Positions 8,509-36,807 of a stretch of DNA of 64,000 nt are shown here, piece after piece; position 1 is the stretch's first letter, and each line of letters opens with the position of its first letter. Under the pieces are notes generated by a model. It did no database searches. It was not told where the DNA came from and saw nothing but the letters and a program-made list of their open reading frames with translations. The position numbers and the translations under genes were made by a program. The DNA comes from Flavivirga abyssicola (GTDB lineage: Bacteria > Bacteroidota > Bacteroidia > Flavobacteriales > Flavobacteriaceae). The DNA lies in the NCBI RefSeq assembly GCF_030540775.2, contig NZ_CP141266.1:4141001-4205000 (forward strand), given 5' to 3'.

Positions 8509-9993
8509 ATGAACTTAACATTCGAAATACAATCGTCTATTCTTGATAATTACAGAAATAATGCTTTTTATATAAACAATACATATTATACTTATAAAGA
8601 TTTAGCTCAAATAATATCAAATATAAGAAGTGAATTAAAAATAAACGTAAAGAAGACCGAGCACTTTATTGGATTAATTACTAATGATGATATTTACACG
8701 TATGCTTCGATAATTGCACTATGGCTAGAAGGTAAAGCTTATGTACCCTTAAATCCAGAATTTCCAAAAGACAGAAACTTGTCAGTAATCAAACAAGCTA
8801 ATGTTATTACAGTTCTTGATTCTTCACTAGATAGCGCTTTTAACAGTGTTAATTCGATAATGACCAAAAAACTTAGTGATTCGAAGATTGATTTACACCC
8901 TATTAAAATATCAAATGAAGATTTTGCTTACATATTTTTCACCTCAGGAACAACAGGTACACCTAAAGGAGTTCCTATTACTTTTGGAAACCTATCTGGT
9001 TTTATTGATGCTCAATGGGCATTAGATTATACAATCACCGAGAATGATAAATGTTTACAGATGTTCGAATTAACCTTCGACTTATCTGTTGTGTCATATC
9101 TAGCACCTTTACTTAAAGGAGCTTGTATTTATACAATACCAAAAGATGAAATTAAATATAGTTATATTTTTGAACTTATGGAAGATCATGAATTGACTTA
9201 TTCGTTAATGGTTCCCTCTATATTACATTATTTAAGACCTTATTTTGATGAAATAAATTGTCCATCAATGAAATATAGTTTGTTTTGTGGAGAAGCTTTA
9301 CCGTTAGACGTTACAGAAGAATGGAGTAAGTGCATCCCTAATGCAACCATTGCTAATGTATATGGACCAACAGAATGTACTATTTACTGCATGGATTATA
9401 CATATAAAAGAGATGTTGAAAACAAAGCACATAATGGTGTTTTAACCATAGGCAAAGACATGAAAAACACATCTACCATAATAGTAGATGATAATAACAA
9501 TGAAGTTGAAACTGGAAAAGAGGGCGAACTTTGCTTAAGCGGAATACAGCTAACTCCTGGCTATTGGAAAAATGAAGAAAAAAACAAAGAAGTCTTTTTT
9601 AATAAAATGCATAATGGAAAAGAAACTAGGTTTTATAGAACGGGCGACCTATGTCGTGCCGATGAAGATGGAGATGTTTTATATTTAGGCAGAGTTGATT
9701 TTCAAGCTAAAATTCAAGGATTTAGAGTAGAATTATCTGAAATAGAATTTCATGCTAAAGCTGCATTGAATAAAGCTAATGCCATAGCTATTGCTTTTAC
9801 TAATAATATCCATAATACAGAAATAGGTTTGGTTATTGAATCGGAACCTATGGATACTAAACAATTGATAGAAAATTTAAATCTTAAATTACCTAAGTAC
9901 ATGATTCCAACACAAATAAAATTTATTGGAAACTTTCCTTTGAACACAAATGGAAAAACAGATAGAAATAAATTAACAGAACTTTTTATTTAA
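8509..9993 (+). CDS. DltA-like amino-acid adenylating enzyme (stand-alone A domain)
   Basis: Start chosen at ATG 8509; an in-frame TTG at 8482 only adds nine residues without homology. The 494-aa enzyme has the adenylation core motifs: A3 SGTTGTPKG at 146-154, YGPTE at 285-289, YRTGDL at 376-381, GRVDFQAK-GFRVELSEIE at 394-413 and the A10 lysine in NGKTDR near 483. The Asp of the A4 motif (FELTFDLS) that holds the alpha-amino group in amino-acid-activating domains is present. Overall length and the DFQ-K-G-R-EL-EIE form match DltA (D-alanine:carrier ligase) better than NRPS modules or CoA ligases. A carrier-protein gene follows after 13 bp. The amino acid activated cannot be told by eye. A close relative lies at 28100. 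Confidence 0.9.
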   Translation: MNLTFEIQSSILDNYRNNAFYINNTYYTYKDLAQIISNIRSELKINVKKTEHFIGLITNDDIYTYASIIALWLEGKAYVPLNPEFPKDRNLSVIKQANVITVLDSSLDSAFNSVNSIMTKKLSDSKIDLHPIKISNEDFAYIFFTSGTTGTPKGVPITFGNLSGFIDAQWALDYTITENDKCLQMFELTFDLSVVSYLAPLLKGACIYTIPKDEIKYSYIFELMEDHELTYSLMVPSILHYLRPYFDEINCPSMKYSLFCGEALPLDVTEEWSKCIPNATIANVYGPTECTIYCMDYTYKRDVENKAHNGVLTIGKDMKNTSTIIVDDNNNEVETGKEGELCLSGIQLTPGYWKNEEKNKEVFFNKMHNGKETRFYRTGDLCRADEDGDVLYLGRVDFQAKIQGFRVELSEIEFHAKAALNKANAIAIAFTNNIHNTEIGLVIESEPMDTKQLIENLNLKLPKYMIPTQIKFIGNFPLNTNGKTDRNKLTELFI

Positions 9994-10006
9994 TAAAATA
10001 GATAAT

Positions 10007-10246
10007 ATGGAGACCTTAACAATAAAAGAAAATATAAGTGATGTATTAAAATCTATTTTGGGGCATAATAACTTTGAAATGCGCGATGAATTAACAGCTA
10101 AGGATGTAGACGGATGGGATTCATTATCGCATATGATGATTATTACTAAAATAGAGGAAGCTTTCAATATTAAATTTAAGCTTAGAGACTTAAATAAACT
10201 TAAAAACATGGGCTCGTTAGTGGCTGTGATACAAAGCAAAATATAA
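10007..10246 (+). CDS. Acyl/aminoacyl carrier protein (DltC-like)
   Basis: The 79-aa acidic helical protein has the phosphopantetheine attachment motif DVDGWDSLSHMM, with the serine of GWDS as the modified residue. Size and position between an adenylating enzyme and an MBOAT protein are those of DltC, so it probably carries an aminoacyl thioester made by the upstream enzyme. It is nearly matched in sequence by the second carrier at 29602, especially around the DVDGW motif and the following MMIIT-IE helix. It would need a phosphopantetheinyl transferase from elsewhere in the genome. Confidence 0.92.
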   Translation: METLTIKENISDVLKSILGHNNFEMRDELTAKDVDGWDSLSHMMIITKIEEAFNIKFKLRDLNKLKNMGSLVAVIQSKI

Positions 10247-10256
10247 TTAACAAACT

Positions 10257-11702
10257 GTGGTATTTAACTCATTTAATTTTGTTGCTTTTATAATACCAGT
10301 ACTTTTTGTTTACTGGTTATTTTTTAAGAAAAGCAAAGTATTTCAAAATATACTATTATTAATCTCTAGCTTAATTTTTTATGCATGGGCAGACTGGAGG
10401 TTTTTAATTCTACTTTTAATAAGTATCCTGCTTAATTATTATTTAGGAAAAAAAATCAGCAATACTACAAATGAGATTATACAAAGACGTTTTTTGTATA
10501 TGGGCTTAATATTTAATATTGGGCTTTTGTTATACTTCAAATATTTTAATTTTTTCTATGACGGATTTGTAGGAATTTTAAATATTTTTGGAGCCACTGC
10601 TAGTTACAGTACACTCTCAATATTACTTCCACTCGGAATTAGTTTTTTCAGTTTCCAAACATTGGGCTATCTTATAGATATCTATGACGAGGAAATTGAG
10701 TCTAGCGATAACCTTTTGGAATTTTCAGTTTTTGTAAGCTATTTTCCAAAAATCCTTTCTGGTCCTATTGAAAGAGCTTCAAAAATGATGCCTCAAGTTC
10801 AAGAGAAAAGAAATTTTTCTTACCCTGTTTTTGTTGATGGACTCAGGCAAATTTTATGGGGGCTATTTGCCAAAATTGTTATTGCAGAAAATTGTGCATC
10901 TATAGTAAACCCTATTTTTAATGACTACGGAAATCAATCTGGAAGCGTATTACTTTTAGGAACATTTTTTTATGCCATCCAATTATATGCTGATTTTTCT
11001 GGATATTCCAATATGGCAATAGGTATATCAAAGCTCTTTGGTATTCAATTAATGCGTAATTTTTCAACGCCCTTCTTTTCAACTAATATTAGTGATTTTT
11101 GGAGAAAGTGGCACATTTCTTTAACCACTTGGATGATGGATTATGTATTTACACCACTATCATTTAGTCTAAGAAATTATCAAAAAAAAGGATTGATCAT
11201 TTCTATTATTACAACATTTGTTCTTGTTGGTTTTTGGCATGGAGCTAATTGGACATTTGTGTTTTATGGATTGCTCCATGGGGTATATTTTATTCCATTA
11301 GTATATTCTGGTAAAATGAACACATCGGAAATAGTAGCAAAAGGTAAGTTTTTGCCATCTTTTGCTGAGCTTATAAAAATGATCTTGTTATTTATTTTAA
11401 TAATGCTCACTGATGTATTTTTTAGAGTTAATAATGTTTCGGATGCTTTTGACTATATATTTTTAATTTTTTCTAATGGTCTTTTTAGTTTTCCTTTAGA
11501 AGTTTTAAGCTCAAATTATTTAATAACCATAGTTTTGTTATGCTTTTTTATACTTGTAGAATGGTTGCATAGAGAAAAACTTCATGATTTTGAGATAAGT
11601 AGATATAATTTTTTAATCAGATGGAGCTTATATGTATTCATTTTTTTATTAATCTTATTTTTTGGTAAAAGTGCAGAAACCTTTATTTATTTTCAATTTT
11701 AA
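10257..11702 (+). CDS. MBOAT-family O-acyltransferase (DltB/AlgI-like)
   Basis: The gene starts with GTG at 10257 (MVFNSFNFVAF). The 481-aa polytopic protein shows both histidine sites of the MBOAT family: FWRKWHISLTTW (first His) and GFWHGANWTFVFYGLLHG (second His). In DltB these correspond to the pair lining the transmembrane tunnel. It is placed directly after an adenylating enzyme and its carrier, the order seen in dlt operons, so I infer that it moves an aminoacyl group from the carrier across the inner membrane to a glycan. O-acetylation as in AlgI is the alternative. The gene ends in the FIYFQF C-terminus shared by all three MBOATs here, and an SGNH-like gene follows after 5 bp. Confidence 0.9.
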   Translation: MVFNSFNFVAFIIPVLFVYWLFFKKSKVFQNILLLISSLIFYAWADWRFLILLLISILLNYYLGKKISNTTNEIIQRRFLYMGLIFNIGLLLYFKYFNFFYDGFVGILNIFGATASYSTLSILLPLGISFFSFQTLGYLIDIYDEEIESSDNLLEFSVFVSYFPKILSGPIERASKMMPQVQEKRNFSYPVFVDGLRQILWGLFAKIVIAENCASIVNPIFNDYGNQSGSVLLLGTFFYAIQLYADFSGYSNMAIGISKLFGIQLMRNFSTPFFSTNISDFWRKWHISLTTWMMDYVFTPLSFSLRNYQKKGLIISIITTFVLVGFWHGANWTFVFYGLLHGVYFIPLVYSGKMNTSEIVAKGKFLPSFAELIKMILLFILIMLTDVFFRVNNVSDAFDYIFLIFSNGLFSFPLEVLSSNYLITIVLLCFFILVEWLHREKLHDFEISRYNFLIRWSLYVFIFLLILFFGKSAETFIYFQF

Positions 11703-11707
11703 ATATT

Positions 11708-12625
11708 ATGAAAACTTTATTTATAAAATTAGGGTTGTTTTCTATGATATGTTTAGCTATTCTAACATATATTTTAATGAATTATGGAGGTAACGTTGAC
11801 TATTTTTATGAAAAATTCACAACACCCAAAGTAAAATCAATGATTATAGGGGACTCAAGAAGTTTTCAAGGAGTCCAGCCTAGTATAATTAATCAATATT
11901 TCCATAACAGCAAGAAGTATGGTCTTCCTATTTTAAATTATAGCTTTACAGGATCTCAAGCCATATCTGGACCTTTATATACAGAAAGTATACTAAAAAA
12001 ATTAGACAAGAAGACAACCAATGGGTTATTCATTATATCTATTACACCCGATTTCTTGACTTCTAAAGTAGGTTTTAGAAATGATCTAGGAGAATTTAGA
12101 GAAGCTAATCAACCTCCTCATAATATGGATATAGTTGATGTCAATCCAAATTATGAATATTTATTAAAAAACATTGCTTATTTTCATTTTAAGGCCTTAT
12201 TTAGAAAGAATTCCAAAACGCATAAAGATGGTTGGTTAGAGGAGTCCAATTTACCTACAGATACTTTAGTTTTTAATACATGGAGAAAACATCAAATAGA
12301 TTTATTTCTCGAAGATAGAAATATGTACAAAATATCAGATTTCAGAGTCAATAGTTTTAATGTTCTTATTAAAGAATTAAAAAAATATGGAGAAGTCTAT
12401 TTAATAAGAATGCCTATAAGTAAGGAGTTTCTAACCCTTGAAAATTCGTACTACCCAAAACTAAGTACTATTGTTGATTCTATAGCAAAGATAAACGAAA
12501 TACCATTTTTTAATTTTAATAATTCGGATAAGCTTCAATACAAAACATACGATGGTCATCATATAGATAAATATGGTGGTGGAAAATTCACGAAAGCTCT
12601 TTGTGACTCAATAACTCAGAAGTAA
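11708..12625 (+). CDS. DltD/SGNH-like membrane-anchored partner of MBOAT
   Basis: The 305-aa protein has an N-terminal signal anchor (residues 5-25) and an extracytoplasmic domain. MIIGDSRSFQG puts a GDSR serine at residue 50, and the C-terminus has TYDGHHIDKYG with Asp282 and His284/285, the Ser and Asp-x-x-His elements of SGNH-like hydrolases and of DltD. Such proteins pair with MBOAT enzymes and complete acyl transfer to the glycan in the periplasm. It follows the MBOAT gene by 5 bp. Similarity to the product of 14098 is clear at both motifs. Acyl donor and acceptor are unknown. Confidence 0.78.
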   Translation: MKTLFIKLGLFSMICLAILTYILMNYGGNVDYFYEKFTTPKVKSMIIGDSRSFQGVQPSIINQYFHNSKKYGLPILNYSFTGSQAISGPLYTESILKKLDKKTTNGLFIISITPDFLTSKVGFRNDLGEFREANQPPHNMDIVDVNPNYEYLLKNIAYFHFKALFRKNSKTHKDGWLEESNLPTDTLVFNTWRKHQIDLFLEDRNMYKISDFRVNSFNVLIKELKKYGEVYLIRMPISKEFLTLENSYYPKLSTIVDSIAKINEIPFFNFNNSDKLQYKTYDGHHIDKYGGGKFTKALCDSITQK

Positions 12626-12643
12626 TTCAATATTTAATATTTT

Positions 12644-14092
12644 ATGCTATTCAACTCGTTTGAATTCTTGCTTTTCTTTCCAATAATGATTATTGGTTTC
12701 TATACGTTACCCCATAAAAACAGATGGCTATGGCTTCTTTTAGGGAGTTATTTTTTTTATATGGTTCATGAACCATCATTAGCCTTACTTCTTATTATCT
12801 CAACTACCGTAGACTATTTTTGTGCCCTAAAAATGCCTAATGCTTCTTATAGAATAAAAAAATATCTTCTTTGCACAAGCATTTTCACCAATATTGGCAT
12901 CCTTTTTTCATTTAAATATTTGTTCTTTTTTACTTCATCAATAGAAGGAATATTTAAATTCTTTGGTTTAAATATTATTGATACTAGTCATACCGGAGCC
13001 TATAATTTTAATCAAATACTATTACCTGTTGGTATAAGCTTTTATACCTTTCAAACACTTAGTTATACTATAGATGTGTACAGGGGTAAAATTTCGCCTG
13101 AAAAACATTTTGGAGTTTTTGCACTCTATGTGTCGTTTTTTCCTCAATTAGTTGCAGGCCCCATAGAACGTGCCTCTAGACTAATTCCACAATTAAAAAA
13201 AGAAATAAGCATTCATTTGCCAAATTTAAAAAAAGGACTTATAATGATAGCTTGGGGATTTTTCTTGAAGGTTGTTGTTGCCGATAGGTTAGGTGTTTAT
13301 GTTGATGCTGCTTTTGAAGATCCTGAGTTTAATCATGGACTCCCTCTATTTATTGGTTCATTTTTCTTTGCTTTTCAGATTTATTACGATTTCTCTGCTT
13401 ATACATCAATAGCAATTGGTACAGCCAAAACAATGGGATTTGATTTAATTCAAAATTTTAACAAACCATATTTCGCCACATCGATTTCAGAATTTTGGAA
13501 ACGGTGGCATATTTCTTTAATGGATTGGCTTAAAGACTACATTTTTATACCCTTAGGAGGTTCTAGATGCTCTAAGTTAAAAGTTGTAAGAAATGTGCTT
13601 ATTTTATTTTTTATTGTAGGCTTATGGCACGGTGCTAATTGGACTTTTGTTATTTGGGGCATATTGAATGCTGTACTCCTTATTATAGAATTTAGCACCA
13701 ACGGTATTAGAAAATTAATTTTTAAAACCCTTAAGGTTCCTAAAACTATAATTAAAATATTGGGGTGGTGTTCTTTAGCCATATGCCTTAGCATACCTTT
13801 AATCTTTTTTAGATCCCCTTCTATAACTGATGCTTTTCTATATTTTAAAAGTATGTTTAACATTACAGGTTTGCATGTTAACATATTGAATAATTATTTT
13901 GAACTTATTTTAAACTTTATCTTTATAATAGGTATTCAAACAATCCATTACTTTAAAGGAAATGATAAAATTCATGAATTGGTTCTAAATAAATCAACGG
14001 CAGTGAGATGGTCAATATATTTGAGCTATATTTTAGTTATAGTTTTATTTGCTATTAATCGTCAAAATACATTTATATATTTTCAATTTTAA
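12644..14092 (+). CDS. MBOAT-family O-acyltransferase, second copy
   Basis: The 482-aa protein is a paralogue of the MBOAT at 10257 and has both catalytic-site histidines: FWKRWHISLMDW and GLWHGANWTFVIWG. The later LHG seen in the first copy is changed to LNA, which is outside the two catalytic positions. A GGSR-type cytoplasmic loop (IPLGGSRCSKLKVVRN) matches AlgI-like members more closely than the first copy does. It is paired with its own DltD-like gene at 14098, 5 bp downstream. It could add a second acyl group, perhaps acetyl, or the same group at another position. Confidence 0.88.
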   Translation: MLFNSFEFLLFFPIMIIGFYTLPHKNRWLWLLLGSYFFYMVHEPSLALLLIISTTVDYFCALKMPNASYRIKKYLLCTSIFTNIGILFSFKYLFFFTSSIEGIFKFFGLNIIDTSHTGAYNFNQILLPVGISFYTFQTLSYTIDVYRGKISPEKHFGVFALYVSFFPQLVAGPIERASRLIPQLKKEISIHLPNLKKGLIMIAWGFFLKVVVADRLGVYVDAAFEDPEFNHGLPLFIGSFFFAFQIYYDFSAYTSIAIGTAKTMGFDLIQNFNKPYFATSISEFWKRWHISLMDWLKDYIFIPLGGSRCSKLKVVRNVLILFFIVGLWHGANWTFVIWGILNAVLLIIEFSTNGIRKLIFKTLKVPKTIIKILGWCSLAICLSIPLIFFRSPSITDAFLYFKSMFNITGLHVNILNNYFELILNFIFIIGIQTIHYFKGNDKIHELVLNKSTAVRWSIYLSYILVIVLFAINRQNTFIYFQF

Positions 14093-14097
14093 CGGTT

Positions 14098-15060
14098 ATG
14101 AAGGATTTTGTTTTTAAAATAGTCATTTTCTGTATTTTATTTGCTGCTGTTTATGCATTTTTTGTGGATAAGCTTTCAAAAGAATATGTAGACCCTTACT
14201 ATAATAAATTTTCTCAAGAAGCCAATGGTTTAATTTTAGGGTTGTCTCGCGCAAGTGAAGGCATTTCTCCTGAAATTATTGAAGAAGAATTAAATAACTG
14301 TTCATTTGAAAAACCAATTGTGAATTTTGCAATGAATACGGTTCAATCATCTTATGGTGAAATATATTTAAGAGGAATAAAGAAAAAGTTAAAACCGAAT
14401 TCTAAAAATGGTCTTTTTATAGTTTCAATTTCCCCAGGAAGTTTTACTGCGCCTTTTGGCATGAACGATAAAAACATTTTCGACATGGATAAAGAAGGTA
14501 TTATTGGTAAAATAGATAATTTCACATCAGCGCCAAACTATAGCTATATTGTTAGCACCTACCCGCTTCCTTTATATAATACGTTGCATGATTTTGATAA
14601 ATGGGATCATCATAAACCACATCCAAGTGGGTGGAATGAAATCACGCAAAATGGTAGATTTAACAAGATTGGAGAAAATGATATCAATCACTGGAAATCG
14701 TTAACAATCAGATACTATAAACGAAAAGTCGAGAAAGAACAATTTTCGAATTACCGCTTAAATTATTTTATAAAGACTATTCAATATTTAAAAACAATTG
14801 GCAATGTCTTCATTGTTCGTTTACCTGCAGATACTGATATTATAAAAACAGAAAATGATTTATGGAAAGGTTTTGACAAACAATTTGATAGTATTTCAAA
14901 ACAACATGATGTTAAGTTTTTAAATTACTCATCATTGGGTAGTGACTATAAAACTTATGACGGGTCTCATATGTTATCCACTAGTGCAAAGAAATTCTCT
15001 AAGCTATTGGGTAAGGATATCAGAAATAGTTTAATGGAAAGGAATAAATATGGTAAATAA
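14098..15060 (+). CDS. DltD/SGNH-like membrane-anchored partner of MBOAT, second copy
   Basis: The 320-aa protein has a signal anchor at residues 5-22. It has LILGLSRASEG, in which the serine of GLSR (residue 50) aligns with GDSR of the first copy, and a C-terminal TYDGSHMLS that provides the Asp-x-x-His pair. The GDS aspartate is replaced by leucine. The architecture is otherwise the same as the product of 11708, so the MBOAT-plus-partner unit has been duplicated as a block. The 3' end overlaps the first GNAT gene by 11 bp, which ties the acyl-export genes and the GNAT array into one transcript. Confidence 0.75.
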   Translation: MKDFVFKIVIFCILFAAVYAFFVDKLSKEYVDPYYNKFSQEANGLILGLSRASEGISPEIIEEELNNCSFEKPIVNFAMNTVQSSYGEIYLRGIKKKLKPNSKNGLFIVSISPGSFTAPFGMNDKNIFDMDKEGIIGKIDNFTSAPNYSYIVSTYPLPLYNTLHDFDKWDHHKPHPSGWNEITQNGRFNKIGENDINHWKSLTIRYYKRKVEKEQFSNYRLNYFIKTIQYLKTIGNVFIVRLPADTDIIKTENDLWKGFDKQFDSISKQHDVKFLNYSSLGSDYKTYDGSHMLSTSAKKFSKLLGKDIRNSLMERNKYGK

Positions 15061-16063
15061 CAAAACCCCTTATTTACGTAAAACTTTTAGGTCTATTTGG
15101 CTAAAACACTTCAACAATAGCGAAAAGCCATTTGATTTTAGTTTTGTTGATACACTTACTTTTGTAAAACATAAAAAACTACCTGTATATTGCAATACAG
15201 GAGGCACTAATACAAAAGGGATTTCATATAATTTATCTAATAACATTTATAATGATTATAAAAATAATGTTTTCATAATCTTTGATGTTCCTGCATTTAA
15301 TGTAGAAAATAATATTAAAAATGAAGATTTAAATTGTTATAAAATCAAACAGTATCCTGGATACATATGCGATCTGCAAAGATACAATACACTTGAAGAG
15401 TATCTACTTGAAGTTATTAGTAAAAAAAGCCGCTATAAATTCAACAGTTACAAACGCAAACTAGAAGCTTCATGTGATGTGCATTATAAAATGTTTTTAG
15501 ATGATATAACTCCAGAAGCTTATGAAGACATCTTTTATCATTTTAAACGGCTTCTCAAAAAACGATTTTTTGATAAGAAAACGGTAAATAATAATTTAAA
15601 TCCTGAGGAATGGAATTTTTATAAAGAAGTTACATTACCTATGCTCTTGAAAAAACAAGCTGGACTTTTTGTAGTATACGATAAAGACAAACCTATTGCT
15701 ATTACCTTAATTAATTTGTCAAATGATACCATGATAGATGTTATTAGGGTTTTCGATATTGACTACAAAAGGTTTAGACTGGGTACCGTTAGTATTATGA
15801 AGCAATTAGAATGGTGTTTTGAAAATAATTTTAAGACTTTAGACTTTTCTAAAGGCTATTTTGAATATAAGCAACGATGGGCAAACAAGCCATATTGGTT
15901 TGAATACCATATTTTTTATGATAAAAAATCAGTTATAGCCAAAACGCTAGCATGGATTTATAAGAATTTCTTTGCCTTTAAATTATTTCTTAGAAAAAAA
16001 CATATTACAAATCTTATTCATGAGATCTGCTTTTTTCTAAACAAAAAGAGATATGCTGAATAA
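15050..16063 (+). CDS. GNAT acyltransferase of the CelD/FemAB type, array member 1
   Basis: The 337-aa protein is the first of six consecutive paralogues. Shared signature elements are SKKSRYKFNSYKRKLE at 124-139, KPIAITL at 214-220, FDIDYKRFRLG at 235-245 and LDFSKGYFEYKQRW at 264-277. The last corresponds to the DFGRGDxxYKxxW motif of the GNAT-like Acetyltransf_6 domain found in cellulose-biosynthesis CelD proteins and related to FemAB aminoacyltransferases. No signal peptide or membrane span is present, so it acts in the cytoplasm. It lacks the extra C-terminal domain found in members 3-7. Acceptor is probably an amino or hydroxyl group of a sugar; donor could be acyl-CoA or the aminoacyl carrier protein (inference). 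Confidence 0.82.
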   Translation: MVNNKTPYLRKTFRSIWLKHFNNSEKPFDFSFVDTLTFVKHKKLPVYCNTGGTNTKGISYNLSNNIYNDYKNNVFIIFDVPAFNVENNIKNEDLNCYKIKQYPGYICDLQRYNTLEEYLLEVISKKSRYKFNSYKRKLEASCDVHYKMFLDDITPEAYEDIFYHFKRLLKKRFFDKKTVNNNLNPEEWNFYKEVTLPMLLKKQAGLFVVYDKDKPIAITLINLSNDTMIDVIRVFDIDYKRFRLGTVSIMKQLEWCFENNFKTLDFSKGYFEYKQRWANKPYWFEYHIFYDKKSVIAKTLAWIYKNFFAFKLFLRKKHITNLIHEICFFLNKKRYAE

Positions 16064-16106
16064 ATATTGAGTAAATTAAGCCATTAACAAAGACCAATCT
16101 GTTTAG

Positions 16107-17063
16107 ATGATCCACAAGCTTTTTTCTATTCGAAACAGTCATTTAATTTTTGATTTATTTTTAAATAAAAAAATAAGTTCATTATACGATGCTAAAGTTT
16201 TTAATACATTAACACAAAATAGCTTCAGCATTGAAAATATTGGTAAAGGGAACTTCAAAAACATCTATCTAATCAAAGATATCCCCAATTATTTAAGTTT
16301 TACCCTTCATTTTAAAGACTCTTCCTTTAAATTAAAAAAAATATTACAATACAAAGGGTATTTGATAAAGACAGAAGGTTTTGTAGATGTTAATAACTTT
16401 ATAAATAGCACTCTAAATAAAAGAAACAAGAAAAATTTAAAGGCAAAAACAAACAAACTTTATAGGAACCACAATATTAGATCACATTTTTTTTTCGGAC
16501 AAATAGATAAACAAGACTACGAAATTCTTTTTGAGGATTTCTACAGGTTACTCGAAACAAGATTTAAAAAGAAGAAGGTACATAACCGTTATTTATTGAA
16601 TTGGGACGATTTAAAAGCTTCTACTTTTCAAAAAATATTAGATAAAAAAGCTTCTTTACATGTTATCTACGATGACTTAAAACCTATTGCAATAACCCTG
16701 AATTTCCATTTAAGCGATATCGTTTTTAGTCATATTCAAACCTATGATGTGGATTATTCCAAATATAACATGGGAGATATAAGTATGGTAAATCATATTG
16801 AATGGTTAATACACAACAATATTGCCATATTTGATCTTTCTATGGGACATACTTATTATAAAGAAAAGTGGAGCAATCATCAGTATTATTTTTTCCATCA
16901 CATTTTTTATAATAAAAAATCAATACTATCAATACTATTCGCTAAGATTATTACGCACGAACTAAAACTCTTGCAATTTTTAAGAGATAAAAATATAATT
17001 GGTAATTTTTTTGTGTTTGATAAGCTTCTTTACATTTATAAAAGCAAAGTAGTAAGACCCTAG
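16107..17063 (+). CDS. GNAT acyltransferase of the CelD/FemAB type, array member 2
   Basis: This is the shortest array member, 318 aa, and lacks the C-terminal domain. It keeps KPIAITLNFH, YDVDYSKYNMG and FDLSMGHTYYKEKW, so the GNAT core is intact. The N-terminal arginine-rich stretch is changed (KRNKKNLKAKTNKLYRN), and the usual CFxIxY strand after it is altered to IRSHFFFGQI, so its acceptor may differ from those of its neighbours. It sits 43 bp after member 1 and 4 bp before member 3. Function beyond acyl transfer cannot be stated. Confidence 0.8.
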   Translation: MIHKLFSIRNSHLIFDLFLNKKISSLYDAKVFNTLTQNSFSIENIGKGNFKNIYLIKDIPNYLSFTLHFKDSSFKLKKILQYKGYLIKTEGFVDVNNFINSTLNKRNKKNLKAKTNKLYRNHNIRSHFFFGQIDKQDYEILFEDFYRLLETRFKKKKVHNRYLLNWDDLKASTFQKILDKKASLHVIYDDLKPIAITLNFHLSDIVFSHIQTYDVDYSKYNMGDISMVNHIEWLIHNNIAIFDLSMGHTYYKEKWSNHQYYFFHHIFYNKKSILSILFAKIITHELKLLQFLRDKNIIGNFFVFDKLLYIYKSKVVRP

Positions 17064-17067
17064 TAGC

Positions 17068-18258: not shown

Positions 18259-18264
18259 GTCTTT

Positions 18265-19440: not shown

Positions 19441-19465
19441 AAATGAAGAAATAGTTGTGTCATAA

Positions 19466-20674: not shown

Positions 20675-20699
20675 ATTAATTTTTAATTTGAAAAATTCA

Positions 20700-23161: not shown

Positions 23162-23269
23162 ATATCTTAATAGCGTTTAAGTTAAAAATTAGTAGCTATA
23201 TCTTTTACGGGTGGTGGGATTATTCAAAAGTGAAATTGTTAATTTTATTAATTTAACCATAAAAATTTA

Positions 23270-24313: not shown

Positions 24314-24314
24314 A

Positions 24315-26964: not shown

Positions 26965-26986
26965 CCATTTTTAATAAAACAATTTG

Positions 26987-29596: not shown

Positions 29597-29601
29597 AACT
29601 T

Positions 29602-29850
29602 ATGAGTAGAGAAGAAATTTTAACAAAAGTCACTAAAGTATTTTCAGGAGTATTAGAGCATAATAATTTTGAACTTACAAATACAACAACAGCAGAAGAT
29701 GTTGATGGTTGGGAATCAATTACACATATGATGATTATTACTGAGATTGAAAAAACCTTTGATATTAAATTTAAGTTAATGGATCTAATGAATATGGACA
29801 GTGTTGGGGATTTATTAAACACTATTGAAACAGAATTGTCAATAAATTAG
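29602..29850 (+). CDS. Acyl/aminoacyl carrier protein, second copy
   Basis: The 82-aa acidic protein has DVDGWESITHMM, with the phosphopantetheine-accepting serine in GWES. It closely resembles the carrier at 10007. Paired with the adenylating enzyme 5 bp upstream, it forms a second activation module. The next gene encodes a PglD-like acetyltransferase rather than an MBOAT. Confidence 0.92.
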   Translation: MSREEILTKVTKVFSGVLEHNNFELTNTTTAEDVDGWESITHMMIITEIEKTFDIKFKLMDLMNMDSVGDLLNTIETELSIN

Positions 29851-29892: not shown

Positions 29893-30561
29893 GTGAAAAA
29901 AATAGTAATTATTGGCGCATCAGGTCACGCGAAAGTTATAATCGATATCATTGAAAAACGAAATGAGTATCAAATTATTGGACTTATTGATTCTTACAAA
30001 AATGCTAATCAAAAAATAATGGGTTATAGCATTTTAGGAAAAGAAGATTTAATACCAGAGTTGATAGAAAAAGAAAAAATTGTTGGAGGGGTTATCGCTA
30101 TTGGAGATAATTGGTCAAGAAATAAAGTGAGGGATATTATTAAAAAAGTTGCTCCAGAATTTAAGTTTTTACCAGCTATACACCCAAACGCAATTTTATG
30201 TAACAATATAAAAATAGAACCTGGCGTCGTTATAATGGCTGGGGCAATAGTAAATACTGAAGCTAAAATAGCCCCCTTTTGTATTTTAAATACAAATTCG
30301 TCTTTAGGACACGATAGTATTATGCATAGCTTTTCCAGTTTGGCTCCCAACGCAACCATTGGCGGGAATGTTAGCATAGGCGAATTTTCGGCAGTGTCTA
30401 TAGGAGCAACGATTATTCAGGATATAAACATAGGGACGCATACTGTTATTGGGGCTGGAACTTTAGCTCTGGAAGATATAGGAAATAACCTTCTAGTATA
30501 TGGTGTACCAGGAAAAAAGATTAGGGATAGACAAATAGGAGAACCATATTTAGCAAAATAA
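29893..30561 (+). CDS. PglD-like sugar N-acyltransferase, copy 1
   Basis: The gene starts with GTG 29893 (MKKIVIIGASGHAKVI). The 222-aa product has the two parts of PglD-type enzymes: an N-terminal Rossmann-like UDP-sugar-binding domain with GASGHAKV at 8-15, and a left-handed beta-helix from about residue 95. His140 in LGHDSIMH is the expected catalytic base. Such enzymes acylate the 4-amino group of UDP-4-amino-trideoxy sugars using acetyl-CoA. Because an aminoacyl carrier gene lies directly upstream, an aminoacyl donor is worth considering, but acetyl-CoA is the default. The amino-sugar aminotransferase usually found beside it is absent. Confidence 0.88.
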   Translation: MKKIVIIGASGHAKVIIDIIEKRNEYQIIGLIDSYKNANQKIMGYSILGKEDLIPELIEKEKIVGGVIAIGDNWSRNKVRDIIKKVAPEFKFLPAIHPNAILCNNIKIEPGVVIMAGAIVNTEAKIAPFCILNTNSSLGHDSIMHSFSSLAPNATIGGNVSIGEFSAVSIGATIIQDINIGTHTVIGAGTLALEDIGNNLLVYGVPGKKIRDRQIGEPYLAK

Positions 30562-30591
30562 TATGTTTTTTAAACAAATAAGAATTATTTA

Positions 30592-31194
30592 ATGTACTCA
30601 TTATTTTTTAAACATTTTCTGGACTTTTTAATTTCAGTAATAGGCTTAATCGTTTTATCTCCGCTGATTTTAATTATTATAATGGTATTAATCTTTACCA
30701 ATAAAGGTAAACCCTTTTTTTTACAGCAAAGACCAGGCAAAGACGGAAAGCTTTTTAAGATTATAAAATTTAAAACGATGACGGATTTAAATCCGAATTC
30801 TAAAAAGGGTGAGCATAGCCTTAGTCGTGTTACAAAGCCAGGAGCTTTTATAAGAAAATATTCGTTAGATGAAGTTTTACAGCTTGTCAATGTTTTAAAA
30901 GGAGATATGAGTATCATTGGCCCGAGACCTTTATTGGTAGAATATTTACCATTATATAACGATGTTCAAAAAACAAGACACCATGTTAGACCAGGTATTA
31001 CTGGATGGGCACAAGTAAAAGGAAGGAATGCATTAAGTTGGGATCAAAAATTCGGATATGATGTATGGTATGTAAAGAATTTAAGCTTAAGCTTAGATGT
31101 GAAAATTTTTTTCCTAACAGTTCTCAAAGTTATTAAAAAAGACGGGGTTAATACTAATGAAAATATGACTATGCCTACATGGAAAGGTAATTAA
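30592..31194 (+). CDS. Initiating phosphoglycosyl transferase (PglC type), copy 2
   Basis: The 200-aa protein has one membrane helix (residues 9-36) and the PglC core: Asp93-Glu94 in KYSLDEVLQL, SIIGPRPLLVEY, and VRPGITGWAQVKGRN. In copy 1 the corresponding segment is TGLAQISGRN; the tryptophan form here is the common PglC form. Having a second initiating enzyme in one locus suggests two different first sugars or two glycans. It is sandwiched between two PglD-like genes. The last 20 residues (TNENMTMPTWKGN) match the Bacteroidota branch of this family. Confidence 0.92.
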   Translation: MYSLFFKHFLDFLISVIGLIVLSPLILIIIMVLIFTNKGKPFFLQQRPGKDGKLFKIIKFKTMTDLNPNSKKGEHSLSRVTKPGAFIRKYSLDEVLQLVNVLKGDMSIIGPRPLLVEYLPLYNDVQKTRHHVRPGITGWAQVKGRNALSWDQKFGYDVWYVKNLSLSLDVKIFFLTVLKVIKKDGVNTNENMTMPTWKGN

Positions 31195-31244
31195 GGTATA
31201 AAAATGTTTACAAAATTCGATTAATAAAAGAATCAACCTATAAA

Positions 31245-31868
31245 ATGAAAAATAAAGTAAGAATATATGGTGCTGGTGGTCACTCTCAAGTAATAAAAGA
31301 AGTTTTAGAGATTAATAATTATATAGTCACAGATACTTTTGATGACAAGCCAGAAGGTGTTCACCATGCCTCTAAAAATGTTGCTGGTGGCGCTAGAAAA
31401 AACCTAAACACTTTTCCTCATGAAGGCGATCCTGTAATTATAGCTGTTGGAATAAATGCGGAACGTGCAGAAATTGCTGGTTTTCTAAATTGTACTTATG
31501 AGAAAGCGATTCATCAATCGGCCATTATTTCAAATACGACAAAAATTGATGAAGGTACCGTGGTGTTCGCAGGCGCTATTATTCAACCCAACACTTCTAT
31601 CGGGAAACATGTCATTATAAATACTGGTGCAAGTGTTGATCATGATAACGTTATTGGTGATTATGCCCATATCTCTCCTAAAGCAGCCTTATGTGGTCAT
31701 GTAGAAGTTGGAGAAGGATCTCATGTAGGTGTTGGCGCTGTAGTAATACCAAAAGTAAAAATTGGTAAATGGTGTACTATTGGTGCCGGAACGATTGTAT
31801 TAAAAGATGTCCCTGATTATTCAACTGTTGTTGGAAATCCAGGAAAAGTAATAAAAACTAAAAAGTAG
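31245..31868 (+). CDS. PglD-like sugar N-acyltransferase, copy 2
   Basis: The 207-aa protein has the same two-part layout as the product of 29893: an N-terminal YGAGGHSQVIKEV nucleotide-sugar-binding loop and C-terminal hexapeptide repeats ending in VVGNPGKVIK. The catalytic His is His133 in VDHDN. It is typical of flavobacterial acetyltransferases placed after a PglC-like enzyme, probably acetylating the 4-amino group of a UDP-trideoxy sugar. No aminotransferase follows; instead an FAD-binding fusion gene starts 7 bp later. Confidence 0.9.
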   Translation: MKNKVRIYGAGGHSQVIKEVLEINNYIVTDTFDDKPEGVHHASKNVAGGARKNLNTFPHEGDPVIIAVGINAERAEIAGFLNCTYEKAIHQSAIISNTTKIDEGTVVFAGAIIQPNTSIGKHVIINTGASVDHDNVIGDYAHISPKAALCGHVEVGEGSHVGVGAVVIPKVKIGKWCTIGAGTIVLKDVPDYSTVVGNPGKVIKTKK

Positions 31869-31875
31869 AGTTAAG

Positions 31876-34539
31876 TTGGAAACACATAAAAAAATATCAG
31901 ATATTACATTTATTGGTTCTGGGATTTCAACCTCTTTCAGTATTATAAATTTTTTGGATCAGATCAATAATGAAGTTCATGTTGATAGTAAAATATCCAT
32001 CAGCATTATTGAAAAATATTCTGAATTCAACATTGGTATTCCATACGGTACGAGATCTGGCTTCTCAACCCTTTTAATAACTTCTTTGAGGAATTTTTTA
32101 ATAGAACCAGAACTTGGTTTGTTTATAAAGTGGCTCAATAAAAATAAAACTTGGCTTTTAAATGAATTTGAAAAAGAAGGGGGTGCATTATCTAAAAAAT
32201 GGCTTTTAGATAATGAAGAAAAGATCAGTAATAATAACTGGGAAGATCTTTTTATCCCACGACGCTTTTTTGGCTGCTATATTAATTTAAGAGTTAACAA
32301 TAAAATAAAAGAACTTACAGAGAAAGGACTTGTTAATGTTAACTTCGTTACTGGAGAAGTAATAGATCTAGATAAAAACAAATCCAACTATAAAATATTT
32401 CTAGAGAACGGTACAGAAATAAGTGCTAAAAAAGTAGTCTTATCTGTGGGGTCATTGCCAATAAATTATCTATGGAGAAACAAGGATCTCATCGAAGAGA
32501 AAAACTTGCTGTTTGTTAATAATCCTTATAAACCAGAATTAAAAGTTATTCTAGAAAAGGTAGAGAATTTTATTAATAACAGAGATGGGGAAGTAACAAA
32601 TGTACTAATCGTTGGGGCTAATGCTAGTGCTTTAGAATTAATCTATAAGCTTAACGATTATACAAAAAACAAGCATAATGAAACTAATTTCACTTTCCTT
32701 TCAACACATGGTACGGTTCCTGATGCTGTAATTGATTTCGAAAAACAGAAAGAGTTTGTTCCAAATCATTTAAATGAATTAAAAAAAGAGAAAAAAATAA
32801 CGGCTAAAGCGATAGCTGAAGCGACTTTTAAAGATCTGGATTCTGCCGATCAAATTAACTTGGGAGCAGCATCTACGGTTGAAATAATTTCAAAATATTT
32901 TGGGGTCTTACTTGAAACCCTCAGCTCAAAAGAGCTTAAAAAATTCGCTTGCAAGTATGGCAATCAAATAGGAAGAAGGCAACGTTGTGCAGGTTTACAC
33001 TACTCAAATGTTATAACAGGGTTAGAAAAAGAAAATAGGTTTGAACATATACGAGGCCGATTCAATGATTTAGTGGAATCAGACGCTAATGGGAATTATA
33101 GTTTGAAATATCTGGATACTTCCACAAAAAAGGAAAAAACACATGATAAACATTTTCATTTAGTTGTTAATTGTGTTGGAAGCAAAAATTTAGATAAAGA
33201 TGACATTCCAGCAATACACCAAAATTTAATAAGAAAAGGTTACTGTATTCCTAATGAATCTAAAATTGGATTCCATGTAAACGATTCACTAGAAGCTAGT
33301 AAAGACCTCTACATTATGGGACCTATGTTAGCAGGAAATGTCATAGAAAAAAAACCTATATGGCACGTAGAACACTGTGGAAGAATTATAGGGCTATCTA
33401 AAATTTTATCAAAAATTATAGCTGATGACTTATTTAAGCCCAAGAATTACAAACCAAAAGATTATAAGTTAGTAGTTAATAATTTAGATAATGATTTAGA
33501 TATCATTAAATATAAAAAATTATTAAAGGAGAATTGGAATAATAATATTTACTATGCCTATGATCATTTAAAGTATTTTGAAAAAAATAAAAGTACTTTA
33601 AAATATTTTCTATTTGAAGTTAATGGTTTTCCTAAAATATTAATGCCCATTATTTTACGGATAGTAAAATCAAAAGAAACTAATTCGGAATACTTTGATG
33701 CTATTACGCCTTATGGATATAATGGACCACTATATAATGATGCCACTGAATTAGATTTAAAAGAGTTCTGGAAAGCTGTAGATAATTGGTACAAAAAGAA
33801 CAATGTCATCACTGAGTTTATTAGATTTAGTTTAAACAAAAATTATCTGGGTTATACAGGGTTGTTGATCAATTCACTTTCGAATGTAAAAGGTATACTT
33901 TATAATGATTTTGAAAAACAATGGGATGCGTTTTCATCCAAAGTAAGAAATAATTACCGTAAAGCTATTTCATTTAAATTGGGATTGAAAATTTTTAATA
34001 ATACTGATATTAATGAGGATGTAATCAAGATTTTTTTCGACATTTATACCGAAACCATGGTAAGGCATAATGCCAAAAAAATATATTTTTTCTCTTTAGA
34101 GTATTTCAAGAACTTAATTCTTAACAATGTTGATGAGTTTGCTATCGCTATGGCTTATCAGGGTGATATCCCTGTTTCGGCCGAACTCATCATAAAAAAC
34201 GGCACCACATTCTTTGCTTTTCTAGGAGGAACAGATTCTAATTATTATAACCAGAGACCTAATGATTTTTTAAGGGTAGAAATTATTAAATGGGCTATCA
34301 AAAATAATTTTAAACAATACATACTCGGTGGAGGATTGAAAAATAATGATGGATTATATAAGAGTAAAAAAGCACTTTTCCCTAAAGATGAAGATGTAAC
34401 ATTTTATACTGGTAGGAAAATAATTGATTATAAAGCCTACGACAAGCTCTGTGAAAACCATATGGATGATTATGCTAATATCCATGAAGAGGAATTAAAA
34501 AATTACTTTTTTCCATTATATCGATTTAATAATAGATAA
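31876..34539 (+). CDS. FAD/NAD(P)-binding protein fused to a FemAB/GNAT-like acyltransferase
   Basis: Start is TTG 31876, because the frame has a stop 22 bp upstream and no ATG. Residues 1 to about 525 form a flavoprotein-like domain of the YdhS/NAD_binding_9 type: the dinucleotide loop ITFIGSGISTSF at 10-21, a second Rossmann motif VLIVGANASALEL at 243-255, and LVVNCVG at 429-435. Residues 545-887 are a FemAB/GNAT-like domain with YGYNGPLY, IPVSAELI and a glycine-rich YILGGGLKNNDGLYKSK motif, clearly related to the product of 35761. The fusion suggests that an oxidised or otherwise redox-modified acyl group is handed straight to a transferase (inference). The flavin substrate is unknown. Confidence 0.82.
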   Translation: METHKKISDITFIGSGISTSFSIINFLDQINNEVHVDSKISISIIEKYSEFNIGIPYGTRSGFSTLLITSLRNFLIEPELGLFIKWLNKNKTWLLNEFEKEGGALSKKWLLDNEEKISNNNWEDLFIPRRFFGCYINLRVNNKIKELTEKGLVNVNFVTGEVIDLDKNKSNYKIFLENGTEISAKKVVLSVGSLPINYLWRNKDLIEEKNLLFVNNPYKPELKVILEKVENFINNRDGEVTNVLIVGANASALELIYKLNDYTKNKHNETNFTFLSTHGTVPDAVIDFEKQKEFVPNHLNELKKEKKITAKAIAEATFKDLDSADQINLGAASTVEIISKYFGVLLETLSSKELKKFACKYGNQIGRRQRCAGLHYSNVITGLEKENRFEHIRGRFNDLVESDANGNYSLKYLDTSTKKEKTHDKHFHLVVNCVGSKNLDKDDIPAIHQNLIRKGYCIPNESKIGFHVNDSLEASKDLYIMGPMLAGNVIEKKPIWHVEHCGRIIGLSKILSKIIADDLFKPKNYKPKDYKLVVNNLDNDLDIIKYKKLLKENWNNNIYYAYDHLKYFEKNKSTLKYFLFEVNGFPKILMPIILRIVKSKETNSEYFDAITPYGYNGPLYNDATELDLKEFWKAVDNWYKKNNVITEFIRFSLNKNYLGYTGLLINSLSNVKGILYNDFEKQWDAFSSKVRNNYRKAISFKLGLKIFNNTDINEDVIKIFFDIYTETMVRHNAKKIYFFSLEYFKNLILNNVDEFAIAMAYQGDIPVSAELIIKNGTTFFAFLGGTDSNYYNQRPNDFLRVEIIKWAIKNNFKQYILGGGLKNNDGLYKSKKALFPKDEDVTFYTGRKIIDYKAYDKLCENHMDDYANIHEEELKNYFFPLYRFNNR

Positions 34540-34567
34540 AAACATATAAGCCCTAGCCTCCCCTATA

Positions 34568-35713
34568 ATGACTAAAAAAAATAGCGATTTCTTTTTTGAA
34601 TATTATGAAAAAAGTAACATTCCAGATACTTTTAATGAGGTTTTGCATGTACAAGAACAAAAAACTTTTATTAATTCTAATTATGATGTAGACAAAAATT
34701 TAGATATTATTAATTCTATATTTTTTGTGCCAAATTATATTGTTCCCAAAATTGATAGTAAACTCTTTAATATAAAAAAAGTTACTCAATTCTTCAAGGG
34801 GTATACCATTTTATTGGATGGATTTGCCTCTGTTGATGAATATTTGAAATTCCGATTCAAAAAAAATGCTAAATCTATTCTCAAAAGAGTTAAAAGGTTA
34901 GAGTTGTGTTTTCCTGTTAGCTACCAGTTTTATTATGGAAATATTTCTGAGGATGATTATGATCTTTTAATGAACACGCTTAAAAAGATGATCATAAATA
35001 GGTTTAAACAAAGAGATGATGTTAGTCAAAACCTTCTAAACTGGGATCATTATCATAAAATATTTTTTAATTTAATTAATGAAAAAAAAGCATCCCTTTT
35101 CGTCATTAAAAATGATACAGAGCCCATATGCATATCTATAAGCAATCATTATAACGGAAAGTTATTTAGTTCTGTGTCTTCATACGATATCGATTATGGT
35201 AAATTTAGTTTAGGAAATATTGAAATCTATAAAAAATTAGAATGGTGTATTGAAAATGGGCATAATGCTTATGAAATGGGTATGGGGGATTTAAGCTATA
35301 AGCGTGAGTGGTCTAATAATATATATAATTTCGAACATCAAATTATATATCCCAAGAAATCATTTTTTGTAATTATACTGGCAAACATTGAATACCTTAA
35401 AGTATTAACCAAAGAAGAGATATACAAAATAGCATATGTGAAATATAAAGCTTGGAAAGCAAAACGTAAAAAACCAAAACCTTTTCTGGCAAAATATACT
35501 ACATCAAAATTTGATAGTGAATCAAACATTGAAAATTTAATAGTAGTAGATGTTAATTTAGAAAATTATCATTTTTTAAGAAAACCTTTTTTCGATTTCT
35601 TGTATTCAAACATGGAAAATATTAATACTGTAACGGTATATGAGGTTTCAAAACACACAAAAACATATTTAATCGTTGGAAAAACAAACAGGCAACAAGT
35701 TATTTTTATATAA
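34568..35713 (+). CDS. GNAT acyltransferase of the CelD/FemAB type, dispersed array member 7
   Basis: The 381-aa protein is homologous to the six-gene array at 15050-21851: KKNAKSILKRVKRLELCF, FYYGNI, EPICISISN, YDIDYGKFSLG and YEMGMGDLSYKREW. It has the C-terminal extra domain (FLRKPFFDFLYSNMENINT). The GNIEIYKKLEWC helix is most like member 6 (GHIEIYKQIEWC), so it probably arose from that gene and moved about 13 kb. It sits between the FAD fusion and a stand-alone FemAB-like gene, which places both acyltransferase families side by side. Confidence 0.82.
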   Translation: MTKKNSDFFFEYYEKSNIPDTFNEVLHVQEQKTFINSNYDVDKNLDIINSIFFVPNYIVPKIDSKLFNIKKVTQFFKGYTILLDGFASVDEYLKFRFKKNAKSILKRVKRLELCFPVSYQFYYGNISEDDYDLLMNTLKKMIINRFKQRDDVSQNLLNWDHYHKIFFNLINEKKASLFVIKNDTEPICISISNHYNGKLFSSVSSYDIDYGKFSLGNIEIYKKLEWCIENGHNAYEMGMGDLSYKREWSNNIYNFEHQIIYPKKSFFVIILANIEYLKVLTKEEIYKIAYVKYKAWKAKRKKPKPFLAKYTTSKFDSESNIENLIVVDVNLENYHFLRKPFFDFLYSNMENINTVTVYEVSKHTKTYLIVGKTNRQQVIFI

Positions 35714-35760
35714 TTATATAACCAATTTTAAATAGATGTAGCAGGAATTAAACTCAAAGC

Positions 35761-36807
35761 ATGGGACGTAAATTAATAGCAAATTTAAAGGTTATCCATA
35801 AAAAAACAGAATGGCACAATACGCTAGATGATATTGGCTATTATGATTTTTATCACACTTATGATTATCATTATTTATCTAAATTACATGATGAAAAAGC
35901 TGTTTTGCTTAAATATACTGAAGGAAATAAAGTTATCTGTTTTCCTTTCTTGATAAGAAAAATTAACGATACAGATTATTTTGATGCCACATCTGTATAT
36001 GGATATGCAGGTCCTTTACAAAAGAATCTTGATAAAAATTTTGACAACAACCTCTTTTCAAAAGCACTAAACAATTATTTTGTTCAGGAAAATATTATTT
36101 CGGTCTTTTCAAGGTTAAACCCATTTATTCATAATCAAGAACTCATATTAAAAAATATAGGTAAAATAAAAGAACTAGGTAATGTAGTTAATATCGATTT
36201 AACCCTACCTCTGGAAAAACAACGTGCATCCTATTCTAAAATTACGAAACGTTACATAAATAAATGCAGAAAACAATGCCATGTAGTAAGAAGTAATTGT
36301 CCGTCAGATATAGACAGTTTTGTAAATCTATATTATGAAAATATGGATCGTGTTAACGCAAAAGAAAATTATTATTTTTCAAAGGACTATTTTTTAAAAT
36401 TTGTAACCAGTAATGACTATGAAACGGATATCTTATTTGCGGTTTTAAAAGATACAAATGAAATCATTTCTTCTGCACTGATGGTAAAAACAAATAACGT
36501 TGTTCAATATCATCTTTCCGGAACCAAGGCTGAATTTTTAGACCTTTCCCCTATTCGCTTGCTAATTGATGAAATGAGAATTATTTCTAAAAATGAAAAT
36601 AAAACTTTTTTTAACCTTGGGGGAGGATTAGGCAATTCTGATGATGGGCTGTTTAGGTTTAAATCTTCATTTTCTAAAGACTTTAAACCTTTTAAAATAT
36701 GGAAGCATATAATAAACAAAAAAGTCTATGATAGCTTAGTAGAAGAATACGTACCTCCAGGTTGTGATTTCGATTTTTTCCCACTATATAGATGCAATAG
36801 ATTGTAA
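35761..36807 (+). CDS. FemAB-like acyl/aminoacyltransferase
   Basis: The 348-aa protein resembles the C-terminal half of the 887-aa fusion and FemA/FemB-type aminoacyltransferases. Shared elements are VYGYAGPLQ in the N-terminal subdomain, KITKRYINKCRKQC, a GNAT beta-strand region ISSALMVKTNNVVQYHLSG, and FNLGGGLGNSDDGLFRFKSSFS near the end. There is no signal peptide, so it is cytoplasmic. FemAB enzymes move amino acids from aminoacyl-tRNA to lipid-linked peptidoglycan precursors; relatives in polysaccharide loci probably acylate sugars. The 3' end converges on a minus-strand gene after 18 bp. Confidence 0.8.
   Translation: MGRKLIANLKVIHKKTEWHNTLDDIGYYDFYHTYDYHYLSKLHDEKAVLLKYTEGNKVICFPFLIRKINDTDYFDATSVYGYAGPLQKNLDKNFDNNLFSKALNNYFVQENIISVFSRLNPFIHNQELILKNIGKIKELGNVVNIDLTLPLEKQRASYSKITKRYINKCRKQCHVVRSNCPSDIDSFVNLYYENMDRVNAKENYYFSKDYFLKFVTSNDYETDILFAVLKDTNEIISSALMVKTNNVVQYHLSGTKAEFLDLSPIRLLIDEMRIISKNENKTFFNLGGGLGNSDDGLFRFKSSFSKDFKPFKIWKHIINKKVYDSLVEEYVPPGCDFDFFPLYRCNRL

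Follow-up and report, generated by a model that had tools for sequence, protein, structure and literature searches.

Two putative aminoacyl-carrier tracks, one of them Dlt-like, in a surface-polysaccharide locus of the Flavobacteriaceae

Results

Gene content and comparison set

We analysed a 64-kb stretch of contig NZ_CP141266.1 (the window), which covers positions 4,141,001-4,205,000 of a one-contig genome of 4.68 Mb, presumably that of a marine member of the Flavobacteriaceae. The window carries a gene cluster (Table 1) that is best explained as the modification part of a surface-polysaccharide locus with two aminoacyl-carrier tracks, each built on an adenylation enzyme (A1 or A2) and a carrier (C1 or C2). 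A1 and C1 are followed by two pairs of MBOAT (B1, B2) and SGNH-type (D1, D2) genes, and A2 and C2 are preceded by Nx, which encodes a tandem GNAT protein. An earlier note on this DNA had named both A enzymes with their carriers, two MBOAT/SGNH pairs, seven GNATs, a FAD-FemAB fusion and a lone FemAB-like protein, and all of these genes were present; it did not list Nx or the third MBOAT/SGNH pair, which lies on the minus strand and has no carrier.

For comparison, the best 80 of 140 loci by likeness to A1/A2 were used, each with 10-kb flanks. The closest named A1 relatives among them came from Flavivirga, Gaetbulibacter and an uncultured member of the Flavobacteriaceae (85-86% identity), which is the basis for the host assignment. 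Neighbourhood counts refer to 78 loci (L021-L098) annotated with the window genes; they exclude L099 and L100, which show 28% and 26% identity. We identified two recurrent units in these related loci. In the first, A1-C1 is joined by an MBOAT gene and frequently by a D-type SGNH gene; the second is Nx-A2-C2. Both recur elsewhere in kept order, indicating more than a chance arrangement.

Table 1. Genes of the locus, with window coordinates
Feature	Coordinates	Strand	Basis or detail
A1, stand-alone amino-acid adenylation enzyme, DltA-like pocket	8509..9993	+	PF00501, 191 bits; code DLVLLCVIYK
C1, carrier	10007..10246	+	PF00550; Ser in DGWDSLS (GWDS motif)
B1, MBOAT with WHG His and fused C-terminal acyl-shuttle motif FIYFQF	10257..11702	+	PF03062, 70.5 bits
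D1, membrane-anchored SGNH protein, DltD/PatB-like	11708..12625	+	Ser50, Asp282, His285; AlphaFold, Foldseek
B2, second MBOAT, likewise ending FIYFQF	12644..14092	+	PF03062, 113.5 bits; 35% identical to B1
D2, second SGNH-type partner	14098..15060	+	29% identical to D1
G1-G6, six CelD/FemAB-like GNATs in a row	15050..21851	+	Pfam, PF13480
GT4 glycosyltransferase, sugar-transfer-associated ATP-grasp, PaaK/CapK-like ligase	22004..25628	+	PaaK-type model matches weak
PglC-type phosphoglycosyltransferase 1	25764..26372	+	PF02397, 204 bits
Formyltransferase, PurN-like	26356..26964	+	Family search
Nx, tandem GNAT, N-myristoyltransferase-like fold	26984..28081	+	AlphaFold, Foldseek; neighbour of A2-C2
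A2, amino-acid adenylation enzyme, altered pocket	28100..29596	+	PF00501, 192.7 bits; code DFVTSGYVYK
C2, carrier	29602..29850	+	PF00550; Ser in DGWESIT (GWES motif)
NeuD/PglD-type sugar acetyltransferase, PglC-type phosphoglycosyltransferase 2, second PglD-type acetyltransferase	29893..31868	+	NeuD_NnaD, 184 and 202 bits (cut-off 161)
FAD-NAD(P)-binding/FemAB fusion	31876..34539	+	Domain search
Seventh array-type GNAT	34568..35713	+	PF13480
Lone FemAB-like protein	35761..36807	+	PF02388, 41 bits
Third MBOAT (ends FIYFQF) and GDSL/SGNH partner, carrier-less	36826..39230	-	Kept at the end of A2 loci

A1 and A2 are amino-acid-type enzymes with different pockets

A1, whose open reading frame (ORF) spans 8482-9993 with the first ATG at 8509, is 52% identical to A2, and C1 is 49% identical to C2. 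The best family model for both A proteins was the amino-acid adenylation domain (312 and 297 bits, under the cut-off of 317), and both carry an Asp at the PheA-235 position. Of 103 rows, 100 retain this amino-binding Asp; the three without it are distant and come from L002, L083 and L100. A carrier was found in 39/39 A2-labelled and 39/40 A1-labelled loci, the latter including distant classes.

We placed the specificity positions by hand on A1, in an alignment of 102 rows, four of which are repeat copies of window genes. The A1 pocket class, DL[VM]LLCVI[YF]K, comprised 29 rows and was also kept in distant Bacteroidota loci (L041, L074, L080, L087); its Cys was kept in five further single rows, and DLM..C and DLV..C occurred in 14 and 16 rows, respectively. 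When counted on an alignment to 3dhv/3fcc, the A1 Cys (in FCGE) aligned with Cys269 of B. cereus DltA, a residue described as the determinant of D- over L-alanine (PMC4176424, PMC8972799) in a pocket described as Leu/Met/Cys (PMC8972799). A relative on a Segatella copri plasmid (L101, code DFSQICMVFK) also has a Cys at the selective place. This relative lies in a polysaccharide locus that also contains phosphonate genes, and the genes after it encode a carrier, an AAC(3)-like transferase and, third in line, an alanine racemase. Because of the Cys269 alignment and this relative beside an alanine racemase, D-alanine is the favoured but unproven substrate of A1. The closest PDB sequence to A1 was that of the linear gramicidin synthase LgrA, the second module of which takes glycine, and glycine is for this reason the main alternative. 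The Segatella racemase was flagged as vanT-like by an automatic tool (37.5% identity). No reference dltA by name was among the 40 matches listed of 2403 plasmid records, which were non-ribosomal peptide synthetases, other ligases and the Segatella relative instead.

The A2 pocket class, DFV[TS]SGY[VI]YK, comprised 46 of the 102 rows and has a Gly at the position of the D-Ala-selective Cys of DltA; its predicted substrate is an amino acid, probably a small one. A quick tree of 82 A proteins, which omits the rows of L001-L020, L083, L099 and L100, placed 39 A2 rows in one clade with a support of 100 in the Shimodaira-Hasegawa-like approximate likelihood-ratio test (SH-aLRT). Beside it stood a Flavobacteriaceae A1 clade (20 rows, support 98), and the Cys-type A1 proteins of other Bacteroidota fell outside. 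The tree placement, together with the two kept units, most simply suggests that A2 is a duplicate of the A1 type with a changed pocket and partner.

Two other arrangements were seen among the relatives. L037 and L038, from metagenome-assembled genomes titled Chlorobiota and Bacteroidetes, carry two tandem A genes (DLMLLCVIFK and DFVY[IV]GILFK) followed by one carrier, an MBOAT and a D gene. A further kept pocket class, DVQAITFIYK, occurred in L081, L084, L097, L086, L088 and L078 (Bacteroidales, Lutibacter), where the A genes adjoin sometimes Nx-like and sometimes MBOAT genes.

The A1-C1 unit is followed by MBOAT proteins with a fused tail

The genes of the series A1-C1-B1-D1-B2-D2 are spaced by 5-18 bases. 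B1 was sequence-matched to the DltB structures 6bug/8jem, and the WHG motif was found in 103/103 MBOATs longer than 420 aa from L021-L098. B1 starts only 10 bases after the end of C1 and this order is kept in related loci, which disfavours a CoA-only donor for B1. Pfam gave no match for D1 or D2, and Ser, Asp and His were invariant in 26/26 aligned D proteins. The AlphaFold model of D1 (predicted local distance difference test, pLDDT, 87) has an SGNH fold. In a Foldseek search with this model, PatB was the top match and DltD came fourth, SGNH hydrolases took ranks between and after these two, and the TM-scores were modest. In block I of D2, where GDS (GDSR) is usual, we observed GLSR, with the serine retained.

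The FXYXXF acyl-shuttle motif is described as lying on the separate protein DltX in carrier-fed Dlt systems and as fused to the MBOAT in carrier-less systems (PMC12148441). We found that 30/33 carrier-adjacent MBOATs end in FxYxxF; the remaining three sequences are truncated at the edge of their locus, one of these being a copy of the window. The tail was also present in 74/76 MBOATs not beside a carrier, indicating that the tail alone is no marker of carrier use. A scan of the 64-kb window found no DltX-like ORF near A1-D2, although a DltX with a degenerate motif, or one encoded outside the window, could have escaped it. Seven ORF segments ended near F.Y..F, namely the three MBOATs and four short ORFs more than 10 kb from B1. 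None of these four resembles a DltX; three are minus-strand ORFs, and the fourth lies within the FAD-FemAB gene in a different frame. Judged on these features, a carrier-fed MBOAT with a built-in shuttle looks like an intermediate type.

Two further gene sets touch on this arrangement. L125 (G070) has A1-C1-B-D followed by a second C-B-D set lacking an A gene, which suggests one loader for two transfer units. On a Metabacillus plasmid (L103, 4108-8451), consecutive genes encode a carrier, an AMP ligase, an MBOAT with the C-terminal motif FIYGGF and its SGNH-like partner, and the amino-acid Asp was not seen by eye at the expected place of this ligase. Carrier-fed MBOATs with a fused tail may thus be spread more widely than the present group.

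The Metabacillus ligase suggests that versions not using amino acids may exist, and hydroxyacyl Qui4N occurs in Flavobacterium O-antigen. Both points count for the explanation that the substrates of the A-carrier pairs are small hydroxy- or fatty acids, so that the MBOAT/SGNH pairs and Nx would be ordinary O- and N-acyltransferases and no amino acid would be involved. The description of fused-tail MBOAT/SGNH pairs as acyl-CoA users (PMC12148441) points the same way. However, the near-constant Asp and the amino-acid adenylation domain as best model argue against it, and we consider this explanation unlikely.

Nx is the constant neighbour of A2-C2

The AlphaFold model of Nx shows two GNAT domains (pLDDT 87), and its top Foldseek match was N-myristoyltransferase (E value 3e-11, TM-score 0.54, root-mean-square deviation 6.8). 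Weak Pfam GNAT matches were obtained for 23/33 Nx rows, and a PDB search by sequence gave no convincing match for Nx or G1. Nx was present in 38/39 A2-labelled loci, the exception (L083) having an odd A enzyme that lacks the Asp. The 10-kb flanks of these loci held a phosphoglycosyltransferase in 37/39, PglD in 32/39 and a LegC-type aminotransferase in 20/39. Because amino-sugar and PglC-type genes surround Nx, we propose a role as a sugar N-acyltransferase; its simplest role would be to N-acylate a nucleotide 4-amino sugar from loaded C2. We also applied an acyl-CoA P-loop pattern to Nx, which matched 5 of 53 Nx-labelled ORFs, the window Nx included, and was rejected as too loose to indicate the donor.

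This neighbourhood bears on the question of whether only A1-C1 is Dlt-like, with the product of A2-C2-Nx being a small aminoacyl compound or peptide that has no connection with the polysaccharide. A2 does have its own clade and its own pocket. Moreover, A genes were detected in 9 of 199 genomes of the family (E 1e-90), a count that like the GNAT counts below is a lower bound (at most seven A-gene and nine GNAT candidates scored per genome), and six of these nine genomes had a single match, labelled A2 with Nx in each case. Such a separate product is nevertheless very improbable in our view, given that Nx-A2-C2 sits amid phosphoglycosyltransferase, PglD and glycosyltransferase genes.

The GNAT array is associated with A genes but is not their constant partner

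The seven array-type GNATs of the window are paralogues with 26-38% identity, and GNATs of this type were found in 46/199 family genomes (E 1e-25). The earlier note had held that the array takes its amino acids from the carriers. In the corresponding explanation, both carriers feed the seven GNATs with many amino acids in the cytoplasm and MBOAT/DltD adds others outside. Co-occurrence of the genes agrees with this in part: array-type GNATs were present in 8/9 A-positive and 38/190 other genomes (p = 3.7e-5), arrays of at least three by hand count in 5/9 and 11/190 (p = 1.8e-4), and in all eight A-positive genomes with GNATs both lay on one contig, about 35 kb or less apart. GNAT arrays and A genes are therefore associated.

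However, they are not constant partners. The same hand count gave 11 family genomes with arrays of at least three GNATs and no detected A gene. In 13 genomes a single contig carries both A modules. Nine of these, all of them Aquimarina, contain just one array-type GNAT and the remaining four have 4, 6, 7 and 7, where six of the 13 are gapped between the loci (five by 0.5-2.1 kb, one by about 12 kb) and genes may be hidden. Array GNATs lay within 10 kb in only 3/40 A1-labelled loci, and the constant neighbour is Nx instead. G1 exceeded the Pfam cut-off for the arginyl-tRNA transferase domain ATE_C (29.0 versus 25 bits), and the pattern [QR]xxGx[GA] was in none of the nine GNAT/FemAB proteins; these two results make aminoacyl-tRNA a possible donor for the array. 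The claim that the array draws on the carriers is thus not supported as stated, although a looser link may exist, and we regard joint feeding of the array as quite unlikely. The comparison across loci points to the array as an optional addition to the locus, not its defining carrier user.

The FAD-NAD(P)-binding and FemAB domains are also fused in L055 and L077, and are encoded by two adjoining genes (525-531 and 361-362 aa) in four Aquimarina loci examined. Their fusion in some loci and adjacency in others suggests that the two domains act together.

Sugar and export genes surround the two modules

Inside the window, glycosyltransferases and an EpsG-family protein are encoded in the left part. 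Phosphoglycosyltransferase 1 probably performs the initiating sugar transfer to the lipid carrier, and the PurN-like formyltransferase may act in sugar N-formylation. The 20 kb to the left of the window hold genes for a CapD-like dehydratase and a LegC-type aminotransferase, both under curated cut-offs, as well as for a flippase of the Wzx type and an export protein of the Wza type. The same 20 kb also contain what looks like a dTDP-sugar set, made up of a dehydratase, a nucleotidyltransferase and an FdtA-type gene.

A minus-strand MBOAT was found in 36/39 A2 loci and a GDSL gene in 35/39, and a 35-member GDSL cluster matches the window gene; this pair is possibly one for CoA-dependent O-acetylation. 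A Cupin_8/JmjC-type gene (window 39512-40354) adjoins the locus, and a relative of it is present in five A2 loci.

Discussion

Taken together, we favour, with somewhat more confidence than doubt, the explanation that the locus combines a Dlt-like A1-C1 export track with a cytoplasmic A2-C2-Nx track. The genes, their order, the conserved pockets and motifs and the folds were observed, and from them we infer which amino acids and acceptors are involved, what donors serve B2 and the array, and all steps of catalysis. On the export track, A1 would load C1 with an activated small amino acid, for which D-alanine is the most likely candidate. B1 would then pass the aminoacyl group from C1 across the membrane to the Tyr of its own C-terminal FIYFQF, and D1 would accept it there on its Ser and place the ester on the exported polysaccharide. 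A2, as an old duplicate of A1 with an altered pocket, would load another small amino acid on C2, and Nx, acting in the cytoplasm, would use it to acylate the free amine of a 4-amino sugar nucleotide (UDP-QuiNAc4N type) prior to initiation of the repeat unit by the PglC-type transferase. The array GNATs of this locus would probably use another donor, aminoacyl-tRNA or acyl-CoA. The earlier note's view of amino-acid-type A enzymes with carriers in a polysaccharide locus, one of them beside an MBOAT/DltD-like pair, is thus borne out. Its idea that carrier-bound amino acids are used twice, in the cytoplasm and outside, is still the best reading, with Nx instead of the GNAT array as the likely cytoplasmic user.

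Several observations weigh against the two-track explanation. A1, C1 and B1 all score under the curated cut-offs for DltA, DltB and DltC, that is, 281/476 and 273/560 bits (score/cut-off) for A1 with two DltA models, 17 of 68 bits for C1 and 172 of 375 bits for B1, and C2 has no DltC match. The pocket positions were set by hand, and LgrA, not a DltA, is the closest PDB sequence to A1. No DltD family model matched D1 by sequence, so that the likeness is at the fold level only, and this fold match spans plain SGNH hydrolases too, which does not tell transferase from hydrolase. B2-D2 has no carrier of its own. Among the A1-labelled loci, an MBOAT is present in 33/40 and a D gene by sequence in only 21/40, and some of those lacking the latter have another ORF with SGNH-like motifs after the MBOAT. 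More distant relatives of Nx are found together with A enzymes whose pockets belong to other classes. Finally, the sub-threshold scores of the dehydratase and the aminotransferase do not fix the exact amino sugar.

We compared the locus with known systems. It resembles the Gram-positive Dlt system (DltA-DltC-DltX-DltB-DltD) in having a stand-alone A enzyme with the selective Cys, a carrier, an MBOAT and an SGNH protein in one operon. Unlike Dlt, it lies in a Gram-negative polysaccharide locus, its shuttle Tyr is fused to the MBOAT with no DltX found, and it holds a second A-carrier copy with a different pocket and partner. The PatAB/AlgI-type systems share the MBOAT with a fused FxYxxF tail and a separate SGNH protein, PatB being the top fold match of D1, whereas their donor as described is acetyl-CoA, with neither carrier nor A enzyme (PMC12148441). 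From the bacillosamine pathway (PglF-PglE-PglD-PglC) the Nx-A2-C2 locus shares the CapD-like dehydratase, the LegC-type aminotransferase and the PglD- and PglC-type genes, but the N-acylation proposed here would proceed via an aminoacyl carrier and a tandem GNAT, not via acetyl-CoA and PglD alone.

The open-access literature that we searched gave no comparable system. The earlier note's statement that no Gram-negative system of this combination had been described was too strong for the Dlt part, since the Bordetella dra locus is described as bringing D-alanine into a Gram-negative outer membrane (PMC9858536). Gram-negative D-alanylation as such is therefore already known, and the likeness of the two loci, taken from this description, lies in D-alanine incorporation in a Gram-negative envelope. 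To our knowledge, dra has no polysaccharide-assembly genes and no second A module. XrtA/PEP-CTERM exopolysaccharide loci combine an AMP-forming ligase, a carrier and FemAB in one locus, a combination that the present locus has in common with them. We rejected the exosortase-A exopolysaccharide system as a candidate, as the TIGR03098 scores (172 and 178 bits) are far under the cut-off of 592; exosortase genes were not searched for.

We suggest, tentatively and with rather more doubt than for the two tracks themselves, that aminoacyl-carrier chemistry acts on both sides of the membrane in one Gram-negative polysaccharide pathway, through a carrier-fed MBOAT with a fused shuttle and an N-aminoacyl nucleotide-sugar enzyme of the N-myristoyltransferase fold. 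Two types of MBOAT-SGNH system are described (PMC12148441): the Dlt type is fed by a carrier and has DltX as a separate protein, and the PatA type draws on CoA and has the tail fused to the MBOAT. If the proposal is true, a carrier-fed MBOAT with a fused tail would join these two types, and the A2 lineage would be a case of an adenylation enzyme switching pocket and partner after duplication. D-alanylation would then extend to the exopolysaccharides of marine Bacteroidota.

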